DNA of 10,825 nt from an uncultured Ruminococcus sp. Its GTDB lineage: Bacteria > Bacillota > Clostridia > Oscillospirales > Acutalibacteraceae. Location: NCBI GenBank assembly GCA_902772795.1, contig CACYBZ010000090.1, positions 1-10,825 on the forward strand, in the 5' to 3' direction. The position numbers and the translations under genes are program-made. Of the stretch, positions 1,013-10,482 are shown piece after piece; the first letter of the stretch is position 1, and every line of letters starts with the position of its first letter. The notes beneath the pieces are model-generated. The model saw only the letters and a program-made list of their open reading frames with translations, did not search any database and was not told the origin of the DNA.

Positions 1013-1110
1013 AATAGGCCTCCTATAAAATTGATTTTGTCTTATCAAGACATTTTAAGAATAAGAATAAAACAGAATTTTGTATGTCCATTTTTTAAGG
1101 GAATATTTTT

Positions 1111-1139
1111 TTGACGTGTTTCATGCTATAATTATATTT
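1111..1139 (+). promoter_or_regulatory. Candidate promoter of the ankyrin gene
   Basis: An extended -10 element, TGCTATAAT, occupies 1124-1132 and would start transcription at about 1139-1140, exactly at an in-frame GTG. A TTGACG at 1111-1116 lies too close (10 bp) to serve this -10, but is 16 bp from an alternative -10, TATATT (1133-1138). Which pair is used cannot be decided by eye. Both put the promoter inside the first codons of the longest open frame, arguing against a start at 1080. Confidence 0.35.
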
Positions 1140-3830
1140 GTGGCACAAATTCCCTCTAAATACGGAAACGTTACATTAGGACAAATAGCTCATTTTTTAG
1201 TTCAACTTTGCGGAAAAGATGCATTGCTGGATATGGGCATATTTACAGATTCTGAGATAAATGATGCTTATAAAGAGAAGGGCTCATACTTAAAATTCAG
1301 GTATACGGATGAGAATTCTTTGTTTGGAAAAATTCGAAAGTTTTTCAAGGAATTAGAAACTGAATTTGATATTCCATTAAAAAAAGGAATAAGAAAAAAG
1401 AGTCTTGATGGGAAATATTTCGAAGAAGTAGCATTAAGTGATTTTCAATGGTTTTATTCACATATTGTATGGCATTATGTAATACAAATATGCGGAACCA
1501 GACCTTTTGATAATTTTCAGAATAATCTATCTAAAAAAATATTGTATGATTATTTGTTAAAACAACCAGATTCCTATATTCCTGATTATATCAATTTTTG
1601 TAGCACACTTACATTTGGTGAGTTGATAGAAAGCTTTGTAAAAGATGAAAATTTTACCTACGAAGAGTTTTACTCACTGATAGAAAAGAGTTTACCTTCT
1701 GATGATAAAGATGATAGGGGAGAATATGTAAAAAAAGCATTACAAAAATCAAGAAAAGAAAATACGAATCCTGCATGGAAAGTATTTTATTCATTGGTAA
1801 GAACAGTAAAAAAATATAGCAAAGAATATGTATCCCTTTTTCTGAATTATTACTTTTATAGAAATTTTAAGACTGCTATAGAATGGATTTCAATTACAAA
1901 AACAGATTTATATAATCTTGAAAACTTTTGTTCAAACTATGATGCTAATAAGGTTTTCTCATTTATAGATGAAAATGTCTCAATGGATAAGATAAAAACT
2001 ATTGTAAAATATGGCAATTTCTTTGATAGCATATCATCTAAAAATACAGAATCAAATCTTAATATCTATCAAGAAAATATGAACAATATAAGAAATGACA
2101 TACCGCATTCTATTTCATTCTGGGAATATTGGTTTTGCGCTAAAGATTTTGTGTTTCATTATCTAAACTCTGGAAATTTAGCAGATTTACATAAAGCAGT
2201 AGAGTGGTACCAGAGAGCTTTTAATATTGGTAAGTATTTCATGGGCAAAGATTCCGAAGGATTTATTCATGAAGCAATAGTCGTATCAATCTATTATGAT
2301 ATGAAAAATGACCCCAAGAACGCGAGAACAAGAATCCAGAAATGTTCATTGTGTAATACTGAGACAAAAACCCCTTTAGATAGGATAACAAAAGATTTCT
2401 ACGATTTCGGAATTGCATTTGATTTATTACTCGGTGAAGCTAATGAAGCAACGACCCTTTTTTATCAATGTTATAATAATTTTTGGTGCTATTTTATTCC
2501 GGAAACAGAGGGTGCAAAAAAGATAAAAGAAGACGATTTATTTCAAAATGCAAATATCGAACCGGTTGGAATATCAGAAGAGGATTCAATCTTTAAAACC
2601 AGGGAAACTTTATTAAATATTTCAGATAAAAGAATTAATAATATACTTCCTACAACACATAATGTTGCATATACACCTATTTCAACAGCAATAATGCAGG
2701 AATTCCTTGATATAGTCGAAATATATTTAGATAAGCAAAAGTATCCTTCTTTGAATTTAAATGTGCCTAATACAAATAATTGCTACCCAATACATGAACT
2801 TATTACAAAATATATAAATGGAAGGGGAGATAAAACAAAAGAAAAAGAACTCATATTAAGGATTTTGGAAAGAACAGAAAAGAGAAGCCTTTTTACACAA
2901 ACAAATCGACAAAGATTTTCCCCTCTGCAGATAGCTATCGAATCTTTAGATTTAGATATTAATAAAGAATTCTTGAAAAAAATGTTTGAAAATCAAAAAA
3001 TTCCTGATGATTTTTTAATATCTCCAGATGAAGTATCTCCTTTGTACTATTCTATTATAACAAAACATCGGCTTACGAATTTAAAATCATTTCAGAAGAA
3101 TAGAGATATAGGAAATATCAATTATAAAAATTTATTTGCCCCTGGATTGTCAGATTCTGAGAAAGAAAAATTTGATACCACATCTGTATATATGGGTAAA
3201 TTACTTAAAGCAATTGAAGATATAGAGAGTCATATTCCTAAAGATGAACTAGCAGAAATAAATAGGCAAATAAATAAAAAAGTAGATGATATTATAGACT
3301 TATATATAGAGAATACAGACAACATAGATGGTTTTATTTCTTATAGCATGAGAGATCCATTGATAAATAATCAAGGGTGCACGGTATTGCTTTATGCATG
3401 TGAAATTAACGATGTTGAATTGTGCAGAAAACTTGTAAAAAACGGAGCTAATATTAATCGTATAGTAGGAAAGGTTGAGGCTCTTAAAAATCCTGATGGG
3501 TCAAATATGTGGATGCCTAATAATTTCATTCAAAGGTGTTTTGGCTTTTGTTCATGGGATTGTCTTGAGTTTTATTTAAAAGAAAATAAGTCCGAAGCTT
3601 CAGAAAATATGCATAGAAGGGATTTTAATATGACTTATTTGGTAGCATTTCTCATACAAATGCTAGATGAAATACAAAAAAATCCTTCAGTTCGCAATGA
3701 TAATATCAATCTGATCCGTCGTTTCATTCCTTTGTTTCTTAATGCGGGAGCAAGTTTACAGGAACCTACAATATGGGGTTCTGCGGAACAAATACTAATG
3801 CAATATAATTTAATGAATTGTTGGTTATAA
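1140..3830 (+). CDS. Large AT-rich ankyrin-repeat protein
   Basis: This is an ~896-residue protein with no signal peptide visible from the preferred start. The N-terminal ~330 residues are helical, aromatic-rich and unrecognised. Around 340-440 there is TPR/Sel1-like character (ADLHKAVEWYQRAFNIG), including one CSLC pair. From about 500 on there are degenerate ankyrin repeats. The clearest is at ~742-775 (GCTVLLYACEINDVELCRKL, then GANIN), with weaker copies near 540-620 and 850-880 (FLNAGASL). Such repeats mediate protein-protein contacts; the partner is unknown. The longest frame begins with TTG at 1080, but a promoter-like -10 lies inside it and no RBS precedes it, so GTG 1140 is preferred as a possibly leaderless start; ATG 1233 is a third option. 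The gene is far more AT-rich than the next gene, suggesting transfer. It could be a defence, toxin or effector protein, but nothing in it proves that. Confidence 0.75.
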   Translation: MAQIPSKYGNVTLGQIAHFLVQLCGKDALLDMGIFTDSEINDAYKEKGSYLKFRYTDENSLFGKIRKFFKELETEFDIPLKKGIRKKSLDGKYFEEVALSDFQWFYSHIVWHYVIQICGTRPFDNFQNNLSKKILYDYLLKQPDSYIPDYINFCSTLTFGELIESFVKDENFTYEEFYSLIEKSLPSDDKDDRGEYVKKALQKSRKENTNPAWKVFYSLVRTVKKYSKEYVSLFLNYYFYRNFKTAIEWISITKTDLYNLENFCSNYDANKVFSFIDENVSMDKIKTIVKYGNFFDSISSKNTESNLNIYQENMNNIRNDIPHSISFWEYWFCAKDFVFHYLNSGNLADLHKAVEWYQRAFNIGKYFMGKDSEGFIHEAIVVSIYYDMKNDPKNARTRIQKCSLCNTETKTPLDRITKDFYDFGIAFDLLLGEANEATTLFYQCYNNFWCYFIPETEGAKKIKEDDLFQNANIEPVGISEEDSIFKTRETLLNISDKRINNILPTTHNVAYTPISTAIMQEFLDIVEIYLDKQKYPSLNLNVPNTNNCYPIHELITKYINGRGDKTKEKELILRILERTEKRSLFTQTNRQRFSPLQIAIESLDLDINKEFLKKMFENQKIPDDFLISPDEVSPLYYSIITKHRLTNLKSFQKNRDIGNINYKNLFAPGLSDSEKEKFDTTSVYMGKLLKAIEDIESHIPKDELAEINRQINKKVDDIIDLYIENTDNIDGFISYSMRDPLINNQGCTVLLYACEINDVELCRKLVKNGANINRIVGKVEALKNPDGSNMWMPNNFIQRCFGFCSWDCLEFYLKENKSEASENMHRRDFNMTYLVAFLIQMLDEIQKNPSVRNDNINLIRRFIPLFLNAGASLQEPTIWGSAEQILMQYNLMNCWL

Positions 3831-3831
3831 T
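3826..3831 (+). promoter_or_regulatory. -10-like hexamer before the DUF72 gene
   Basis: A perfect TATAAT overlaps the stop codon of the ankyrin gene and lies 6 nt before the DUF72 ATG, which has no recognisable RBS. This spacing would give a leaderless mRNA. No good -35 is visible and the surroundings are AT-rich, so chance occurrence is possible. Confidence 0.25.
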
Positions 3832-3837
3832 AAAGCT

Positions 3838-4641
3838 ATGTCAGACCTCTTAATCGGCACCAGCGGATACGATTATCCAGAATGGAAGGGTATTTTCTAT
3901 CCGCAGGATTTGAAACGTAAAGATTTTCTCAGTTACTATGCAACTCAGTTTAATGCACTGGAACTGAATAATACGTTTTACAACATGCCAACACCAGAAC
4001 GCCTTTATTCATTCTTCGAACGCAGTGAAGGCAGGCTGCAATTCAGCGTAAAGGCAAACAGGCTTCTGACTCACGAAATAGATTCAACCTGGCAGACCGC
4101 CGCTGAAGATTTCAAAGCCGCATTAACTCCGCTACAAGAAAATGGTGCTCTTTCTGCAGTACTTTTCCAGTTACCGGAAAGCTTTCATTACACAAACGAT
4201 AACCGCATCTACCTAGCAAACCTGATTCAGAAGTTTGAAGGATTCCCGACATTGGTAGAATTCCGGCACCGCGAGTGGATCAAGGAAAGCGTTTTTGAAG
4301 GTCTTGAAAAACGAAATACCGGAATAGTGTTTTGTGATATGCCGCAGCTTAAGAATTTACCAGACGGCACAGTAACAAACACTCCTTTTATTGGCAGCAA
4401 CGCTTACATCCGACTACACGGACGAAATGGGAATGCCTGGTATACAGCCGGTGAATCTCCCAATGGCAGTGCCCGCTATTGTTATGATTATTCGGAAAAT
4501 GAATTATCTCAGTTTGTTCCTATAATAAAGGCAGCAGTAAGGGAAGGTAAGAAAGTCCAGGTGTACTTTAACAATCATCCCAACGGTAGCGGTGCCAAGA
4601 ATGGGCAGAAGCTGAAAGAGAGGTTGCAAAAGAGTATTTAA
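3838..4641 (+). CDS. DUF72 (YecE-like) family protein
   Basis: This full-length 267-residue DUF72 protein belongs to a family with a TIM-barrel fold, and its size matches E. coli YecE. Characteristic segments appear in order: GTSGYDYPEWKGIFYP near the N-terminus, ELNNTFYNMPTPE (~40-55), FSVKANRLLTH (~76-87), LFQLPESFHY (~115), VEFRHREW (~140-148), YIRLHGRNGNAWY (~190-202) and VQVYFNNHPNG near the C-terminus. The biochemical role of the family is not established; it is cytosolic. The gene is clearly richer in GC (about 45% on sampled lines) than the ankyrin gene before it and the R-M operon after it, so it probably belongs to the host background. It starts 7 bp after the ankyrin stop, without a clear SD. 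Transcription is likely to end at the hairpin at 4740-4771. Confidence 0.93.
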   Translation: MSDLLIGTSGYDYPEWKGIFYPQDLKRKDFLSYYATQFNALELNNTFYNMPTPERLYSFFERSEGRLQFSVKANRLLTHEIDSTWQTAAEDFKAALTPLQENGALSAVLFQLPESFHYTNDNRIYLANLIQKFEGFPTLVEFRHREWIKESVFEGLEKRNTGIVFCDMPQLKNLPDGTVTNTPFIGSNAYIRLHGRNGNAWYTAGESPNGSARYCYDYSENELSQFVPIIKAAVREGKKVQVYFNNHPNGSGAKNGQKLKERLQKSI

Positions 4642-4739
4642 AAAATAAAAATATAGATAAAATAGTCTTTTAACGCAAAATTTTGGAAATTAGTTAATAT
4701 CATAACTAAAGTTTTTATGTGTGCTAAATTAGAATTGTA

Positions 4740-4771
4740 CAAAAAGGCGTCAATATATTGACGCCTTTTTG
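4740..4771. terminator. Perfect palindromic hairpin terminator that also holds GACGC sites
   Basis: A 32-nt perfect inverted repeat consists of an A5 run, GGCGTCAATA, its exact complement TATTGACGCC, and a T5 run, closed by a C/G pair at the ends. As RNA it forms a GC-capped stem with a U-tract on either strand, so it fits a bidirectional intrinsic terminator. It would end read-through from the DUF72 gene about 100 bp upstream and insulate the R-M operon. The right arm doubles as the -35 box of the next promoter. Confidence 0.75.
4746..4765. promoter_or_regulatory. Putative methylation-sensitive operator: two inverted GACGC sites
   Basis: The core of the palindrome carries GCGTC at 4747-4751 and GACGC at 4760-4764, head to head and separated by 8 bp. 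GACGC is the recognition sequence of the LlaJI R-M system, to whose protein types this operon belongs. The right-hand site overlaps the -35 hexamer TTGACG by five bases. LlaJI expression has been reported to depend on methylation of GACGC sites in its own promoter. The same control is inferred here from position. By eye I found no other GACGC or GCGTC in the window. Confidence 0.6.
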
Positions 4772-4793
4772 CTATTTTTGTATACTAATTCGT
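4758..4793 (+). promoter_or_regulatory. Sigma70-type promoter of the R-M operon
   Basis: A near-consensus -35 (TTGACG, 4758-4763) and -10 (TATACT, 4781-4786) are separated by the optimal 17 bp. The expected transcription start is at about 4793-4794, which coincides with the ATG of the leader gene, so the mRNA would be leaderless. The -35 lies inside the GACGC palindrome, so either methylation or protein binding there would affect initiation. Confidence 0.7.
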
Positions 4794-5039
4794 ATGGATA
4801 GTTTTGATTCCTTTGAGATATGGTTAGATCAGAATACAGATTTTACAACTAGGACAAAAAGTAATATCAAATCTAGAATTAGAAGAGCAGATCAGATACT
4901 ACCTTTTCAACAGACTGATGTATATGTATTTCATTTATCAAATGAAATGAAAAAGAAAAATCTATCAGTTTCTGTACGTTCGCAAATAAAAAAATCAATA
5001 AGTCTCTATTTGGAATTTTTAAATGGGGTAACAAAATGA
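4794..5039 (+). CDS. Small leader protein of the R-M operon, possibly DNA-binding
   Basis: This is an 81-residue, all-helical protein. The pattern FEIWLDQN, then TKSNIKSRIRRADQIL, then SVSVRSQIKKSISLYLEFL resembles the SAM-like core-binding domain at the N-terminus of tyrosine recombinases, without any catalytic domain. That domain type contacts DNA, so a controller-like or accessory DNA-binding role is possible but unproven. The start is ATG 4794. An in-frame TTG at 4758 would lie inside the terminator palindrome and on the -35 box, so it is rejected. No SD precedes 4794, but it coincides with the predicted transcription start. Its stop overlaps the first methyltransferase start by 4 bp (ATGA), implying translational coupling. 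The LlaJI prototype is described as four genes, so this would be an extra component. Confidence 0.7.
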   Translation: MDSFDSFEIWLDQNTDFTTRTKSNIKSRIRRADQILPFQQTDVYVFHLSNEMKKKNLSVSVRSQIKKSISLYLEFLNGVTK

Positions 5040-6175
5040 AAATTCTTTCACTATTTGCTAACATTGGTGTTGCCGAAGCTTACCTCGAAGATACCCATAA
5101 TGAAGTTGTAGTCGCAAATGAATTAATCGAACGAAGAGCAACTTTATATTCAAAAATTTATCCAAAAACATTTACTATTTGTGGGGATATTACAAAAAAA
5201 GAAATTCAACAAGAGATAATTAATAAGAGTAAGGAATTATCTGTTGAAATAATAATGGCGACTCCTCCATGCCAGGGTATGAGCACTGCTGGTCCACAAG
5301 ACGAAGACGATATAAGAAATGAATTAATTTGCCAAGTAGTAAAGATTACAAAGCAAATAGAGCCAAAGTATATTTTTATTGAGAACGTTCCTCTATTTTA
5401 TAATACATATATAAATGTCGAAGGTGCTAAAATCCTTATTCCAGATTATTTAGAGAAAGAATTAGGAAAAGAATATTTTATTGAAAAGAAGATAATAGAT
5501 ACCGCAGATTATTCTGTTCCTCAGACAAGGGAAAGAGCCATAACTCTTCTATCAAGGAAGGATCAAAAATATAAATGGGTGGTTCCTCAAAAAGATAGCA
5601 AAAAAGTTACAATGAGGGATGCCATCGGTGATTTACCATCTTTAGATCCATTTATTAAAGATGTATCGGATGAAGAATTGTTAGAAATATTTCCGAAGTT
5701 TTATGAAAGGAAAAAAGAAGCTGAAAAAATATCTATTTGGCATAATCCGCCGGTACATGTAAAACGACAAGTAATTGCAATGATGCATACACCATCTGGA
5801 TGTACTGCATTTGACAACAAAATTTATTTTCCTAAAAAGGAAGATGGTACTCCGGTAAAGGGGTATAGAAATACATATAAACGTCAAAATTGGGATACGG
5901 CTGCTTACACTGTTACTATGGATAACAGAAAAATATCCTCACAAAATAACGTACATCCAGGTAGATTATACACTCTAAACGGGGAAGAGTTATATTCAGA
6001 TGCTCGAACACTTACTTTGTATGAATTAATGAAAATTATGAGCCTTCCAACAGATTGGCCAGTTCCTCCAAATACATCCGAAGCATTTTTGCGACGGATA
6101 ATTGGAGAAGGAATACCGCCTTTATTTGTAAAAAAAGTTTTTGAGGAATTAAATAGAGGGGTAAAAAATGACTAA
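5036..6175 (+). CDS. DNA (cytosine-5-)-methyltransferase, first of two (LlaJI-type M)
   Basis: This 379-residue enzyme transfers a methyl group from S-adenosylmethionine to C5 of cytosine in its DNA target. Motifs in order: motif I LSLFANIG (4-11); motif IV ATPPCQG (75-81) with catalytic C79; motif VI IENV (115-118); motif VIII QTRER (163-167); DAIGDLPSLDP (195-205), motif IX-like; and motif X GEGIPP (357-362). The long stretch between VIII and X, including NVHPGR (305-310), should hold the target recognition region. The gene overlaps the leader gene by 4 bp and the second methyltransferase by 8 bp; a GGGG-type SD lies 7 nt before the ATG. It is a clear paralogue of the next gene. In LlaJI-type systems two such enzymes each methylate one strand of an asymmetric site, so the pair probably divides GACGC and GCGTC. 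Confidence 0.95.
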   Translation: MKILSLFANIGVAEAYLEDTHNEVVVANELIERRATLYSKIYPKTFTICGDITKKEIQQEIINKSKELSVEIIMATPPCQGMSTAGPQDEDDIRNELICQVVKITKQIEPKYIFIENVPLFYNTYINVEGAKILIPDYLEKELGKEYFIEKKIIDTADYSVPQTRERAITLLSRKDQKYKWVVPQKDSKKVTMRDAIGDLPSLDPFIKDVSDEELLEIFPKFYERKKEAEKISIWHNPPVHVKRQVIAMMHTPSGCTAFDNKIYFPKKEDGTPVKGYRNTYKRQNWDTAAYTVTMDNRKISSQNNVHPGRLYTLNGEELYSDARTLTLYELMKIMSLPTDWPVPPNTSEAFLRRIIGEGIPPLFVKKVFEELNRGVKND

Positions 6176-7304
6176 ACTTAGAGGATTATCTCTTTTTGCA
6201 AATGTTGGAATTGCAGAAGCATATTTAAAATCGATTGGGGTAGATATTTTAGTAGCTAATGAACTTGATTCTGAAAGAGCTCGATTTTATCAAGAAGTAT
6301 ATAAAGACTCTGAAATGATTTGTGGTGATATTACAGACAAAAGTGTTTTTGATACTGTTATTAATGAATCAAGGAAAAAAAAGGTAGATTTCATTATTGC
6401 AACCCCACCGTGCCAAGGAATGAGTGAGGCAGGTCTTAGATTAGAGTTTGATGAACGTAATTATTTAATAACTTATGCGATTGAGGCCATTCATGAATTA
6501 AAACCAAAATTTGTATTATTAGAGAATGTTCCTAAACAACTTACCACGAAAATAAAGTATAAGGGAGAAATAATCTTAATACCTGAATACATTAAACGAG
6601 AATTAATACAAGATTATAATTTTAATAAAGAAACTTTGGTGATGGCTAAAGATTATGGAGTACCTCAATTGCGGGAAAGAAATATTTTTCTTCTTGTAAG
6701 AAAAGATCTTCCGTATGTTTGGGAATTTCCTGAGAAACAGAAAGAAATAACCTTAAAAGAAGCTATAGGTTCGCTGCCATCATTGGATCCTTTATTGAGA
6801 GAAGGCATAGAAGAAACTCGTAAACATTTTCCAGACTATGACAAGAAAGTCGCAGAGGGACTTAAAGTTTCTAAGTGGCATATACCACCCGTTCATTCTT
6901 GGAAACAGGTTGAGTGGATGATGCATACGCCAACTGGAAAATCAGCTATATATAATGAAGTATTCTATCCTCAAAAATCTGACGGAACTCCAATAAAAGC
7001 TCACCACAATAATTATAGGAGATTAAAGTGGGATATGCCTTGCAGAACCATTACACAAAATAATGGTGTTATTTCATCACTTGCTTGTGTTCATCCAGGA
7101 AGACCTTATACTGTAAATAATGAAATTATGTACTCTGATGCTAGAGTTTTGTCGATATATGAATTAATGATAGTAACATCTTTGCCAATAGACTGGCCAA
7201 TACCTGATTGGGCAACTGAAAGTTTTATTAGAAAGGTTATAGGCGAAGGTATACCATCAAATCTTGTAAAAGTAATTATGCAAAATCTTCTAAGACAACT
7301 ATAA
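6168..7304 (+). CDS. DNA (cytosine-5-)-methyltransferase, second of two (LlaJI-type M)
   Basis: This 378-residue paralogue of the preceding enzyme has the same motif order: LSLFANVG (7-14); ATPPCQG (78-84) with catalytic C82; ENV (119-121); QLRER (167-171); EAIGSLPSLDP (198-208); VHPGR (308-312); GEGIP (359-363). It aligns with the first methyltransferase along its whole length. Conserved blocks are nearly identical, while the 120-160 and 255-300 regions differ, as expected if they recognise different strands of one asymmetric target. All catalytic residues are present, so it should be active. AGAGGGG lies 6 nt before the ATG, inside the end of the upstream gene, and the 8-bp overlap suggests coupled translation and balanced amounts. 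The gene is AT-rich like the rest of the operon. Which enzyme modifies which strand cannot be read from sequence. Confidence 0.95.
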   Translation: MTKLRGLSLFANVGIAEAYLKSIGVDILVANELDSERARFYQEVYKDSEMICGDITDKSVFDTVINESRKKKVDFIIATPPCQGMSEAGLRLEFDERNYLITYAIEAIHELKPKFVLLENVPKQLTTKIKYKGEIILIPEYIKRELIQDYNFNKETLVMAKDYGVPQLRERNIFLLVRKDLPYVWEFPEKQKEITLKEAIGSLPSLDPLLREGIEETRKHFPDYDKKVAEGLKVSKWHIPPVHSWKQVEWMMHTPTGKSAIYNEVFYPQKSDGTPIKAHHNNYRRLKWDMPCRTITQNNGVISSLACVHPGRPYTVNNEIMYSDARVLSIYELMIVTSLPIDWPIPDWATESFIRKVIGEGIPSNLVKVIMQNLLRQL

Positions 7305-7327: not shown

Positions 7328-9151
7328 ATGGGTAGTGTGGTAATGCCAAAAAACAGTGCGGATATTGAAGTATTAATCCCTATACTTGAATACTATTACA
7401 ATAATCAAAATTGGATTGATAATGCAAATTATATTGAGTATATAAAACAGTATTTATTGGAAAAAGGCATTGATACAAAGGAAAGGGAACCTCAACACTA
7501 TACAAAGAGAATGCAGATTCTGTCTTATTTTGGCTTTATTGAATGGGAAGATATTAATAATAGTCAATCGGCAAGAAGAATTACAAAATCTGGTCGCCAA
7601 TTTTATAAGGCCATTAAAGACAATGATCAATCCATGATAGCAGAATCTATAATTACTGCACTCGAAAATACTACTTTTGGAAGAATGAATACGGGTGCTC
7701 CAAACTCTGAATCAGATATAGAGGCCCCATGTTTATGTATTCGTCTAATTCTGGAATTGAATTATATAACAAAAACAGAATTTGCTTATTGTTTGTATAA
7801 ACTGCAAGATAAGGGATTTACCTATTCTACTATTCTTCAAGAAATAAAAGATGGAAGAGATGGCACAATAGAATACACTTTGCCGGAAGAAGCAAATAAG
7901 TATACTGACTGGAAACCAATTAATTTCTTAGAACGATTTCATATATTAAAAACAGAAGAATCAGAAACATTTTTAGAGCCAAGTATTAAATCAAATTATA
8001 TAGACAGATTAAGAAATCTCAAGGTTTATAGTATAGATAAAGACATAAAGCCTTCTCCAAACACTGGTGCCATATCATCAATAGACGATGAATTATTATT
8101 GAAAAAAGGCATTACTGATAGTTCTGCGACAAAGCATACTAATCCAAAACAGATAATTTATTATGGTGTCCCTGGTTGTGGAAAAAGCCATAAAATTTCT
8201 GAAATGTTAAGTGATAAGGAACAATTCCAAATTGTTTCTGAGGAAAATCAGATTATAAGAACAGTATTTCATCCTGATTATACAAATGCAGATTTTATTG
8301 GCCAAATACTTCCAGAAGTGAATGATTCAAGAATTGAATATAATTTTAAAGCGGGACCATTCGCTGAAATTCTTGCAAGGGCATTAATTCATCCTGAAAA
8401 TCAATATGTCTTAATTATTGAAGAAATAAATCGTGGTAATTCCGCAGCTATTTTCGGTGAAATCTTTCAACTATTAGACAGAATAGAAGTCGGTGAGACG
8501 ACATGTGAGGATGGCTTAAATAAATATGGAAAAGGGTGGAGTGAATACTTTTTCATGAATGATTATATAAATTATTATGTAAGACAGTCTGCTTGTAATT
8601 CTAAAGACCCGGAAAAGATGGTAAAACTTAATGGAATTGAATTTTCGGATAATACGGGTATTCGACTACCTCCTAATTTATCTCTTTTGGCCACAATGAA
8701 TACAAGCGATCAAAATGTATTTACATTAGATAATGCTTTCCAAAGACGTTGGAATATGGAATATATTTCTAATAAGTTTGATATTAATGCAAAAACTTCA
8801 ACTGATAAACAGAAAAATCAGTTTAATGCAACTATTGGAGAAACCCAGATTTCTTGGGGCAAATTCCGGGATGCTATTAATAAAGAAATTGCAAATCCAG
8901 AAAATAGTTTTGCAAATGCAGAAGATAAACAACTTGGATTGTTTTTTATAAAAGCAGAAAATAAAAAAATTAATGAATCAGATTTTTCAAATAAGGTTTT
9001 AAAATATCTCTGGAATGATGTTTTCAAGAGAGATAAATCTATCTTCAATGACAATGTTTTGACTTTTGGAGACTTGCTTGATGCCTTTAAGGGGTCTGAT
9101 GCTTTTATAAAGAGTTTTAGTACAGATTTTATCCCAAAGCTCTCAGAATAG
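7328..9151 (+). CDS. McrB-like AAA+ NTPase subunit of restriction complex (LlaJI R1-like)
   Basis: This 607-residue protein has a C-terminal AAA+ module of McrB type. It includes Walker A GVPGCGKS (280-287), an FHPDYTNADFIGQI block (314-327), Walker B IIEEINRGN (363-371) continuing AAIFGEIFQLLDR, and ATMNTSD (455-461), equivalent to the McrB GTP-specificity region. D468 to RRW (473-475) holds the arginine finger-type residues. GTP-driven translocation or activation of the nuclease is expected from the family. Residues 1-240 are separate: 10-95 look like a winged helix (ending ARRITKSGRQFY), and 130-235 form a second helical segment ending in a Y/R-rich strand. This region is the likely site-specific DNA reader. 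AGGAGTG lies 7 nt before the ATG. The gene follows the second methyltransferase by 23 bp and precedes the nuclease by 5 bp, as in LlaJI, where both gene products are needed to cut DNA. Confidence 0.9.
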   Translation: MGSVVMPKNSADIEVLIPILEYYYNNQNWIDNANYIEYIKQYLLEKGIDTKEREPQHYTKRMQILSYFGFIEWEDINNSQSARRITKSGRQFYKAIKDNDQSMIAESIITALENTTFGRMNTGAPNSESDIEAPCLCIRLILELNYITKTEFAYCLYKLQDKGFTYSTILQEIKDGRDGTIEYTLPEEANKYTDWKPINFLERFHILKTEESETFLEPSIKSNYIDRLRNLKVYSIDKDIKPSPNTGAISSIDDELLLKKGITDSSATKHTNPKQIIYYGVPGCGKSHKISEMLSDKEQFQIVSEENQIIRTVFHPDYTNADFIGQILPEVNDSRIEYNFKAGPFAEILARALIHPENQYVLIIEEINRGNSAAIFGEIFQLLDRIEVGETTCEDGLNKYGKGWSEYFFMNDYINYYVRQSACNSKDPEKMVKLNGIEFSDNTGIRLPPNLSLLATMNTSDQNVFTLDNAFQRRWNMEYISNKFDINAKTSTDKQKNQFNATIGETQISWGKFRDAINKEIANPENSFANAEDKQLGLFFIKAENKKINESDFSNKVLKYLWNDVFKRDKSIFNDNVLTFGDLLDAFKGSDAFIKSFSTDFIPKLSE

Positions 9152-9156
9152 AATAA

Positions 9157-10482
9157 ATGGCAGATAGTTTAGAAGGTAACAAAATCACCCTTAATGTAGC
9201 TTCCTCAGGGAATCAATTTGTCGGTCTAAGAATTTTAGATTCAGAGAAGACAATAACGTTCCCTATGGGGTACAATCTTGGGGAGAATGATGTTTCTGTT
9301 GATAAATTAAACAAGTCTCAAAGAAAAGCGATTCTAAATTTACTTTCTAGAATTAACGGTTGTAAAAAGCTAAAAGAAGGCGAAAAAATTTTTGAATTCA
9401 ATAATCAGAAAAATGATTCTTCTATGCCTTTACAATCTATGCTCTATATTATTGAGGATTACCTTGAACGTAATACTTATTATACCGAAAAAGAAATCCT
9501 TTATACTGTGGCAAAAAGCGGAAAAATAAGTTGGAATAGAACTGTTAAAAAAAATCAACCTACAGTTTCAGAAAGTGGAATAGCTTTTCTAGATTTTGTT
9601 GTCCGCAAGAATCATATTCAAGAAAATCAGCTTATTACGGAACTTCATGTTTATTGTGTTTATAAATGTTTTGAGGTTTTAGGTTTTTTATATACTCCAT
9701 TTCTCCCAGGAAAAGGGCTCTTATCAGAAACTGATATTATAAAAGATAAAAAATACTTTTTGAGCTTTATTCAGGAAAAAATCGATAATACCCACCTTGA
9801 ATCAAATATCGAGTTGTTTTCAGCAATGTATGATTTTCTTGCAAACTTTAATGCCGATGCAGAATTAAACAATGCCACTTTTGGAACTAAATCATTCCAG
9901 ACTGTTTGGGAAAGTATGGTTGAAAATCTTTTCACAACTATTTCAGAAAATACAAAAGAACGATATTTCTATCCTCGTACAAAATGGACTTTCAAGCGTT
10001 TTAGAAATGCGCCGTTAAGACCTGATACCATAATGATAGATGGCGATAAATGTTTTATTTTGGATTCAAAGTATTATTCTTATTCGTCAAAGGAAAAAGA
10101 AGAAGATACTGAAAATGGAGAAGAAACAAGCGGTTCAATCCCTGGCTCTGATTCAATTCAGAAACAGATTACCTATGCAGAATTTATCGATAAAGGAATA
10201 AATAATAATCCAAATAATAAACGGCCTGATAAATACAGATTTGATTCTAGCAATATTTTTAATGTGTTTATTCTACCTGCCAAAAATACAGACGGAAAGT
10301 TTGACTATTTGGGGTATGCAACGTCTGAATGGAAAGATAACTCTAAGAATTACCATTATGTTCATGCGATTACTTTAGACACACAATTTTTGATGACTAA
10401 TGGAAACAAGAATTCAGATGCACTGAGAAAAGAATTGATTGAATTTATCATGAAAGAAAATAAGGTTACTTTGCAAGGTTGA
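9157..10482 (+). CDS. LlaJI-type restriction endonuclease subunit, PD-(D/E)XK (McrC-like, R2)
   Basis: This 441-residue nuclease partner of the McrB-like protein has a PD-(D/E)XK active site that is visible as P289-D290, then D303-S304-K305. It is preceded by TKWTFKRFRNAPLR and followed by a QIxY segment (Q337-Y340), typical of the helix after the core in McrC-like nucleases. An acidic, Glu/Gly/Ser-rich low-complexity stretch (about 311-331) separates the DSK strand from that helix. The N-terminal ~250 residues include a winged-helix-like part (about 100-155) and probably contact the AAA+ partner, by analogy with McrC. Layout, partner and motifs match the LlaJI restriction endonuclease family. 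The start is 5 bp after the previous stop with no clear SD, so translation is probably coupled. All catalytic positions are intact, so the system looks functional. Confidence 0.9.
   Translation: MADSLEGNKITLNVASSGNQFVGLRILDSEKTITFPMGYNLGENDVSVDKLNKSQRKAILNLLSRINGCKKLKEGEKIFEFNNQKNDSSMPLQSMLYIIEDYLERNTYYTEKEILYTVAKSGKISWNRTVKKNQPTVSESGIAFLDFVVRKNHIQENQLITELHVYCVYKCFEVLGFLYTPFLPGKGLLSETDIIKDKKYFLSFIQEKIDNTHLESNIELFSAMYDFLANFNADAELNNATFGTKSFQTVWESMVENLFTTISENTKERYFYPRTKWTFKRFRNAPLRPDTIMIDGDKCFILDSKYYSYSSKEKEEDTENGEETSGSIPGSDSIQKQITYAEFIDKGINNNPNNKRPDKYRFDSSNIFNVFILPAKNTDGKFDYLGYATSEWKDNSKNYHYVHAITLDTQFLMTNGNKNSDALRKELIEFIMKENKVTLQG

Follow-up and report, generated by a model that had tools for sequence, protein, structure and literature searches.

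How mobile restriction-modification (R-M) operons time methylation before cutting after cell entry is a standing question. It is already known that target sites occur in R-M promoters and that the LlaJI system of the Lactococcus plasmid pNP40 (NC_010901) is autoregulated; in the excerpts of the literature consulted, autoregulation by M1.LlaJI and a role for the promoter sites are supported, and R1.LlaJI is described to bind in vitro a promoter probe with two LlaJI sites (PMC1459862). Here we analyse a palindrome that precedes a LlaJI-type operon in a 10,825-bp stretch of DNA from an uncultured Ruminococcus sp. (contig CACYBZ010000090.1), the whole of which is called the window below. The operon comprises two C5-methyltransferases, an McrB-like subunit R1 and a RE_LlaJI subunit R2, family matches which bear out the gene set named in an earlier interpretation of the DNA (the sequence-only reading). 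The relevant features, including an open reading frame (ORF) for a protein resembling the core-binding (CB) domain of tyrosine recombinases, are as follows.

4740..4771, palindrome CAAAAAGGCGTCAATATATTGACGCCTTTTTG, the operator with extended arms (18-nt overlapping arms, 100% complementary)
4746..4765, operator core GGCGTCAA-N4-TTGACGCC, 16 fixed positions
4747..4751, minus strand, GACGC site 1 (GCGTC on the plus strand)
4760..4764, plus strand, GACGC site 2, overlapping the -35 box
4758..4763, plus strand, -35 box TTGACG, in the right arm
4781..4786, plus strand, -10 box TATACT, 17-bp spacer from the -35 box
4794..5039, plus strand, separate CB-like ORF of 81 aa, putative regulator, first gene after the palindrome
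5036..6175, plus strand, M1, C5-methyltransferase (PF00145, E 9e-48), with an ATGA overlap with the CB ORF
6168..7304, plus strand, M2, C5-methyltransferase (PF00145, E 3e-42)
7328..9151, plus strand, R1, McrB-like AAA+ subunit
9157..10482, plus strand, R2, RE_LlaJI nuclease subunit (PF09563, E 2.3e-34)

We consider it likely that the palindrome is an autoregulatory operator-promoter of the operon, built from the system's own targets, read by the CB-like protein and tuned by methylation. In the proposed mechanism, two inverted copies of the own target GACGC would serve as half-sites, the right copy forming part of the -35 box; the CB-like protein would bind both as a dimer, probably with M1 (tethered or cooperating), and, once methyltransferase is sufficient, would block RNA polymerase over the promoter. 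5-Methylcytosine (5mC) in the two sites would alter CB binding and -35 recognition, the promoter would sense whether the cell is already protected, and an operon that has just entered a cell would stay active up to the point of methylation of that cell. Provided that operator and target are one, the promoter would be a direct gauge of protection. The analysis shows anatomy, conservation, co-occurrence, fold prediction and reuse with other specificities; dimer binding, repression, methylation sensitivity and GACGC specificity in the host are inferred.

The pNP40 system shares with the window the gene order M1-M2-R1-R2, the operator core and the 17-bp promoter geometry, its operator reading GGCGTCAA-ATTC-TTGACGCC, with TTGACG followed at 17 bp by TAGAAT; the corresponding core in the window is GGCGTCAA-TATA-TTGACGCC. 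By eye, the pNP40 operator lies between the primers given for the R1.LlaJI promoter probe in the available part of that report (PMC1459862). The two loci differ in the length of the perfect arms (24 bp in pNP40, 14 bp in the window) and in the CB domain, which in pNP40 forms the N-terminal part of M1 and in the window has an ORF of its own. As the sequence-only reading had held, the same site occupies the same place in a diverged system: identity to pNP40 LlaJI is 71% for M1 and 73% for M2, and falls to 33% for R1 and 32% for R2. Since the target recognition regions between motifs VIII and X are 71% (M1) and 77% (M2) identical to those of LlaJI, the specificity of the window system is predicted to be GACGC. 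The two sites in the palindrome, placed head to head as had been claimed, are the only GACGC/GCGTC sites in the window (3.38 in shuffled sequences), a number which is in itself ordinary; that both lie inside one palindrome is unusual. The operator core occurs as a single copy in its own genome.

Of 22 M2 relatives found in named genomes, 13 have a CB domain and nine have none; with pNP40 added, the CB-bearing group numbers 14. The closest relative found (L015) is located in a bin named Treponema. The exact core is present 52-94 bp ahead of the first gene in 12 of the 14 CB-bearing relatives, including the near-identical L021 and L022. The exceptions are L029, which has only the right half of the operator (upstream of 6586), and L025, which has none (upstream of 3522). 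Fifteen distinct core loci, counted with the window and three loci chosen by the pattern itself (L049, L050, L062) and after removal of the near-duplicate L022 and of L026, which has only a near-core, were compared with each other. All 16 fixed core positions are identical at all 15, and most bases outside vary. At these loci a -10 box follows the TTGACG of the right arm at 17-18 bp; the best -10 score at a distance of 16-18 bp from this TTGACG averages 5.4 of 6, compared with 2.97 elsewhere, and the sum of the scores was reached by none of 20,000 random draws. As a lone match the predicted promoter is unremarkable (three matches in 4200-5300, 4.2 expected in shuffles), and it is by comparison across loci that the call becomes strong; the second GACGC site overlapping a -35 box with this spacer and -10 box, also part of the sequence-only reading, is confirmed. 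Only 7 nt separate the -10 box from the ATG at 4794, and the mRNA of the CB ORF is therefore probably leaderless. The gap in L015 is similarly short (10 nt between -10 box and ATG). In L019, L021, and L022, a second, degenerate copy, GGCGTTAAT-N-CAATTC, is found just upstream of the operator; its C-to-T change would fit deamination of 5mC.

The relatives counted above do not include the three pattern-chosen loci (L066 being the same contig as L062), L067, whose contig begins within M1, L004-L014 unless stated otherwise, L132-L135 (weak partial matches) and L091/L096 (weak partial CB match). The promoter comparison leaves out the distant RE_LlaJI systems L003-L007, and L078-L088 are apparently the CB regions of loci that had been included before.

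The sequence-only reading had missed that the palindrome is followed first by the separate 81-aa ORF and not by a methyltransferase; the product of this ORF is 42% identical across 71 residues to the N-terminus of pNP40 M1. Its predicted fold resembles the CB domains of tyrosine recombinases (four-helix, SAM-like), and the ORF stops after this CB-like domain, the catalytic domain of the recombinases being absent. Searches with the ORF gave no Pfam family at E 0.1, nor any match in PADLOC or NCBIfam at E 0.001. The C proteins of R-M systems are likewise encoded by a small ORF that precedes the R-M genes, with inverted repeats in the promoter. C proteins are helix-turn-helix (HTH) proteins, whereas no HTH family matched the window ORF at E 0.1; one of 16 members of the CB-family set A1 matched HTH_23 at E 0.062. 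In a tree of the CB domains (FastTree, short alignment), the HhaI-type members introduced below stand together with full support, and several deeper nodes have low support.

An alternative is that control of the promoter lies with the methyltransferases alone, which would methylate it or bind to it, and that the CB ORF acts elsewhere, e.g. in protein stability or in contact with the nuclease. Other R-M systems are known to be controlled by promoter methylation and by methyltransferase binding, according to the parts consulted of two reports (PMC3695355, PMC12898733), and one locus, L026, has paired sites without a CB domain. Yet all nine CB-less relatives keep M1 and M2, and eight of them lack the pair; the exact core is found in none of the nine, L026 coming near with GGCGTCAAATACTAGACGCC. 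In four CB-less loci tested, the recognition regions of M1 and M2 are 58-75% identical to those of the window; the methyltransferases alone therefore do not require the palindrome, the presence of which, judged by sequence comparison, tracks the CB-like ORF better than it tracks the methyltransferases. We regard control by the methyltransferases alone as improbable. In three of the nine CB-less operons (L028:6573-6830, L030:377-556, L036:6606-6827) a small ORF, XRE-like by eye only, precedes M1; the regulator may have been exchanged in these operons.

A further alternative is a plain repressor operator, in which CB itself reads GRCGYCAA half-sites, methylation is irrelevant and the R-M target overlaps these half-sites by descent or by coincidence. 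The core itself speaks for it: LlaJI needs five bases only, GACGC, yet the sixth base (GACGCC) and the inner CAA/TTG vary no more than these five. The same invariance, together with the link between the pair and CB, is the reason why we favour a second reader besides the methyltransferases. What bears further on a plain operator is the occurrence of the same layout in other R-M families. HindV recognizes GRCGYC and HhaI recognizes GCGC. Beside HindVP-family nucleases, a CB-like domain is found at the methyltransferase C-terminus on Citrobacter and E. coli plasmids (on Morganella plasmids by position; L073, L074, L092 and L093 were examined, and the matches comprised 24 non-Lactococcus plasmid records); in G593 and the viral contigs L129-L131 it has an ORF of its own. 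CB is also encoded by a separate ORF after M.HhaI-like methyltransferases (L076 vs M.HhaI, E 2.7e-162) with an R.HhaI-like gene nearby, and this HhaI-associated CB matches the window CB family with an hhalign probability of 92% (E 6.7e-7). Finally, in G288 a CB-like domain stands before a methyltransferase of no assigned family.

When target-like sites were counted in one way for all loci, within 200 bp ahead of the first gene, LlaJI-type loci with CB have a pair at offset 13 in 13 of 15 rows (window and near-duplicate L022 included; exceptions L025 and L029), those without CB in one of nine (L026). HindVP-type loci with CB have a GRCGYC pair at offset 14 in seven of eight rows, L131 repeating L130; the exception, L094, is a methyltransferase with a single site, and no HindVP nuclease was matched there. 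In L095 a third site lies further upstream, and L092, read across the record start, has the same pair as L093. HhaI-like loci with CB have a GCGC pair at offset 7 in 6/6, the pair also being present in L142, a contig which ends before any CB would be visible, and the G288 promoter has two ACGT at offset 6. LlaJI-type and HindVP-type operators share a common frame, GRCGYC-AA-N4-TT-GRCGYC (one side having CTA instead of CAA in the plasmids of Citrobacter and Morganella), which again speaks for a plain operator. By their sequences, the operators of the E. coli plasmids (GACGTC-AA-TTTA-TT-GACGTC) and of G593 (GGCGTC-AA-AATA-TT-GACGTC) are the LlaJI frame carrying the site of the other family. Against a plain operator, the site changes with the methyltransferase family (GACGC, GRCGYC, GCGC, ACGT), and two of these sites each rank first in avoidance among the 4-mers of the genome sampled for them: GCGC has an observed/expected ratio (O/E) of 0.20 in 200 kb of G136, and ACGT one of 0.02 in 152,546 bp of G288 (locus included; seven sites, two of them in the CB promoter), where the low count in the 14-kb locus had been seen before the wider count was made. 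A plain operator appears unlikely to us, if slightly less so than control by the methyltransferases alone.

All four targets have RCGY in common, possibly the feature recognised by the CB fold. More tentatively, and with somewhat less than even confidence, we propose a portable class of R-M controllers, in which a CB domain, at either end of the methyltransferase or free, would read a pair of the system's own RCGY-containing targets in the promoter and their methylation state. The operator would then be a barcode of R-M specificity legible from sequence alone, a view suggested by the prediction of ACGT for G288. If true, the specificity of an uncharacterised R-M system could be read from its promoter, and a DNA-binding domain of recombinases would have taken on a regulatory role in the company of several R-M families, with which it travels.

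Several observations qualify the proposal of a CB-read, methylation-tuned operator. The core also occurs outside R-M operons: a pattern search in 398 genomes of the phylum found it in the window and in G596 only, the 3-kb locus of the latter containing no R-M gene, and of 28 matches in viral contigs, three are tied to an R-M operon of LlaJI type (L049, L050, L062) and 25 are not, at least 12 of these being near-identical copies of one sequence. Avoidance does not furnish proof of the GACGC specificity, as GACGC is not clearly avoided (O/E 0.90 in G179, 0.73 in the window host). The pair is absent from all six HhaI-like loci without CB, yet a nuclease was seen in none of these six, which weakens the contrast. 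No regulatory function is known for the site in a related C. cellulovorans system, as far as the excerpt consulted goes, and M1.LlaJI is listed, in the part available of one report, among methyltransferases that repress their own gene and leave the nuclease gene unaffected (PMC3978073).

The 4-mers which the window host does avoid (sample L147-L166 of G000 plus the window) are CGCG (O/E 0.02), GCGC (0.03), and GATC (0.11), hinting at further R-M systems; the LlaJI-type operon does not explain GCGC and CGCG, and avoidance alone therefore does not identify a system.

Other known systems resemble the window locus in part; the sources cited here were available as excerpts, to which the comparison is limited. 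M.SsoII and M.Ecl18kI likewise combine a small extra domain on a C5-methyltransferase with a palindromic operator in the methyltransferase promoter, but their domain is predicted to be HTH, in contrast to the predicted CB-like fold here, and their operator differs from the methylation site, whereas the operator described here contains the predicted target (PMC3695355, PMC3978073). CfrBI, LlaDII and others are self-regulated via their own target in the promoter, but no CB-like partner or fixed inverted pair is described for them in the excerpts. RptR is a small helical repressor of 79 aa that likewise precedes an R-M operon, but it belongs to type I systems with TAGCTA sites, without a described link from operator to target (PMC12255303). 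The open-licence literature searched yielded neither a CB-like controller nor its free-standing form nor a paired-site operator common to LlaJI-type, HindVP-type and HhaI-like systems.

The host genome consists of 480 contigs and is 84.6% complete. Two genes lie upstream of the palindrome.

1080-3830, ankyrin-repeat protein of 916 aa
3838-4641, DUF72 protein gene

The sequence-only reading had also seen an intrinsic terminator in the palindrome, and as a third alternative the element could be the terminator of the DUF72 gene, with a fortuitous promoter overlap. The terminator-like structure, a strong GC stem with a T-rich tail, is real in the window (two such matches in 4200-5300, 0.6 expected). 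The job itself is not conserved: the core bases are maintained while the perfect arms vary from 8 to 24 bp and reach at least 14 bp in only three of the 15 distinct loci, and a T run directly follows the core only in the window and L027. We have rejected termination as the main role and consider this explanation highly improbable. On the whole, what the sequence-only reading had observed is confirmed, and its interpretation is supported in part.

The N-terminal domain of R1 (window 7328-8047) has a predicted likeness to the type IIS recognition domains of Nt.BspD6I, BpuJI, and FokI. Placed on an McrB-like motor, it does not, by this prediction, obviously match the B3 fold that has been described in R1 of LlaJI; no B3 fold was among the 50 VIA matches listed, an absence that is no proof. 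In L075 (2208-2220), two further ACGT are located some 730 bp before the ORFs 2946-4558, which adjoin the G288 methyltransferase and are possibly its nuclease genes. Genes for Vsr-type (very-short-patch-repair) endonucleases are found near R-M systems in L095 (6825-7229) and L003 (10493-11008).
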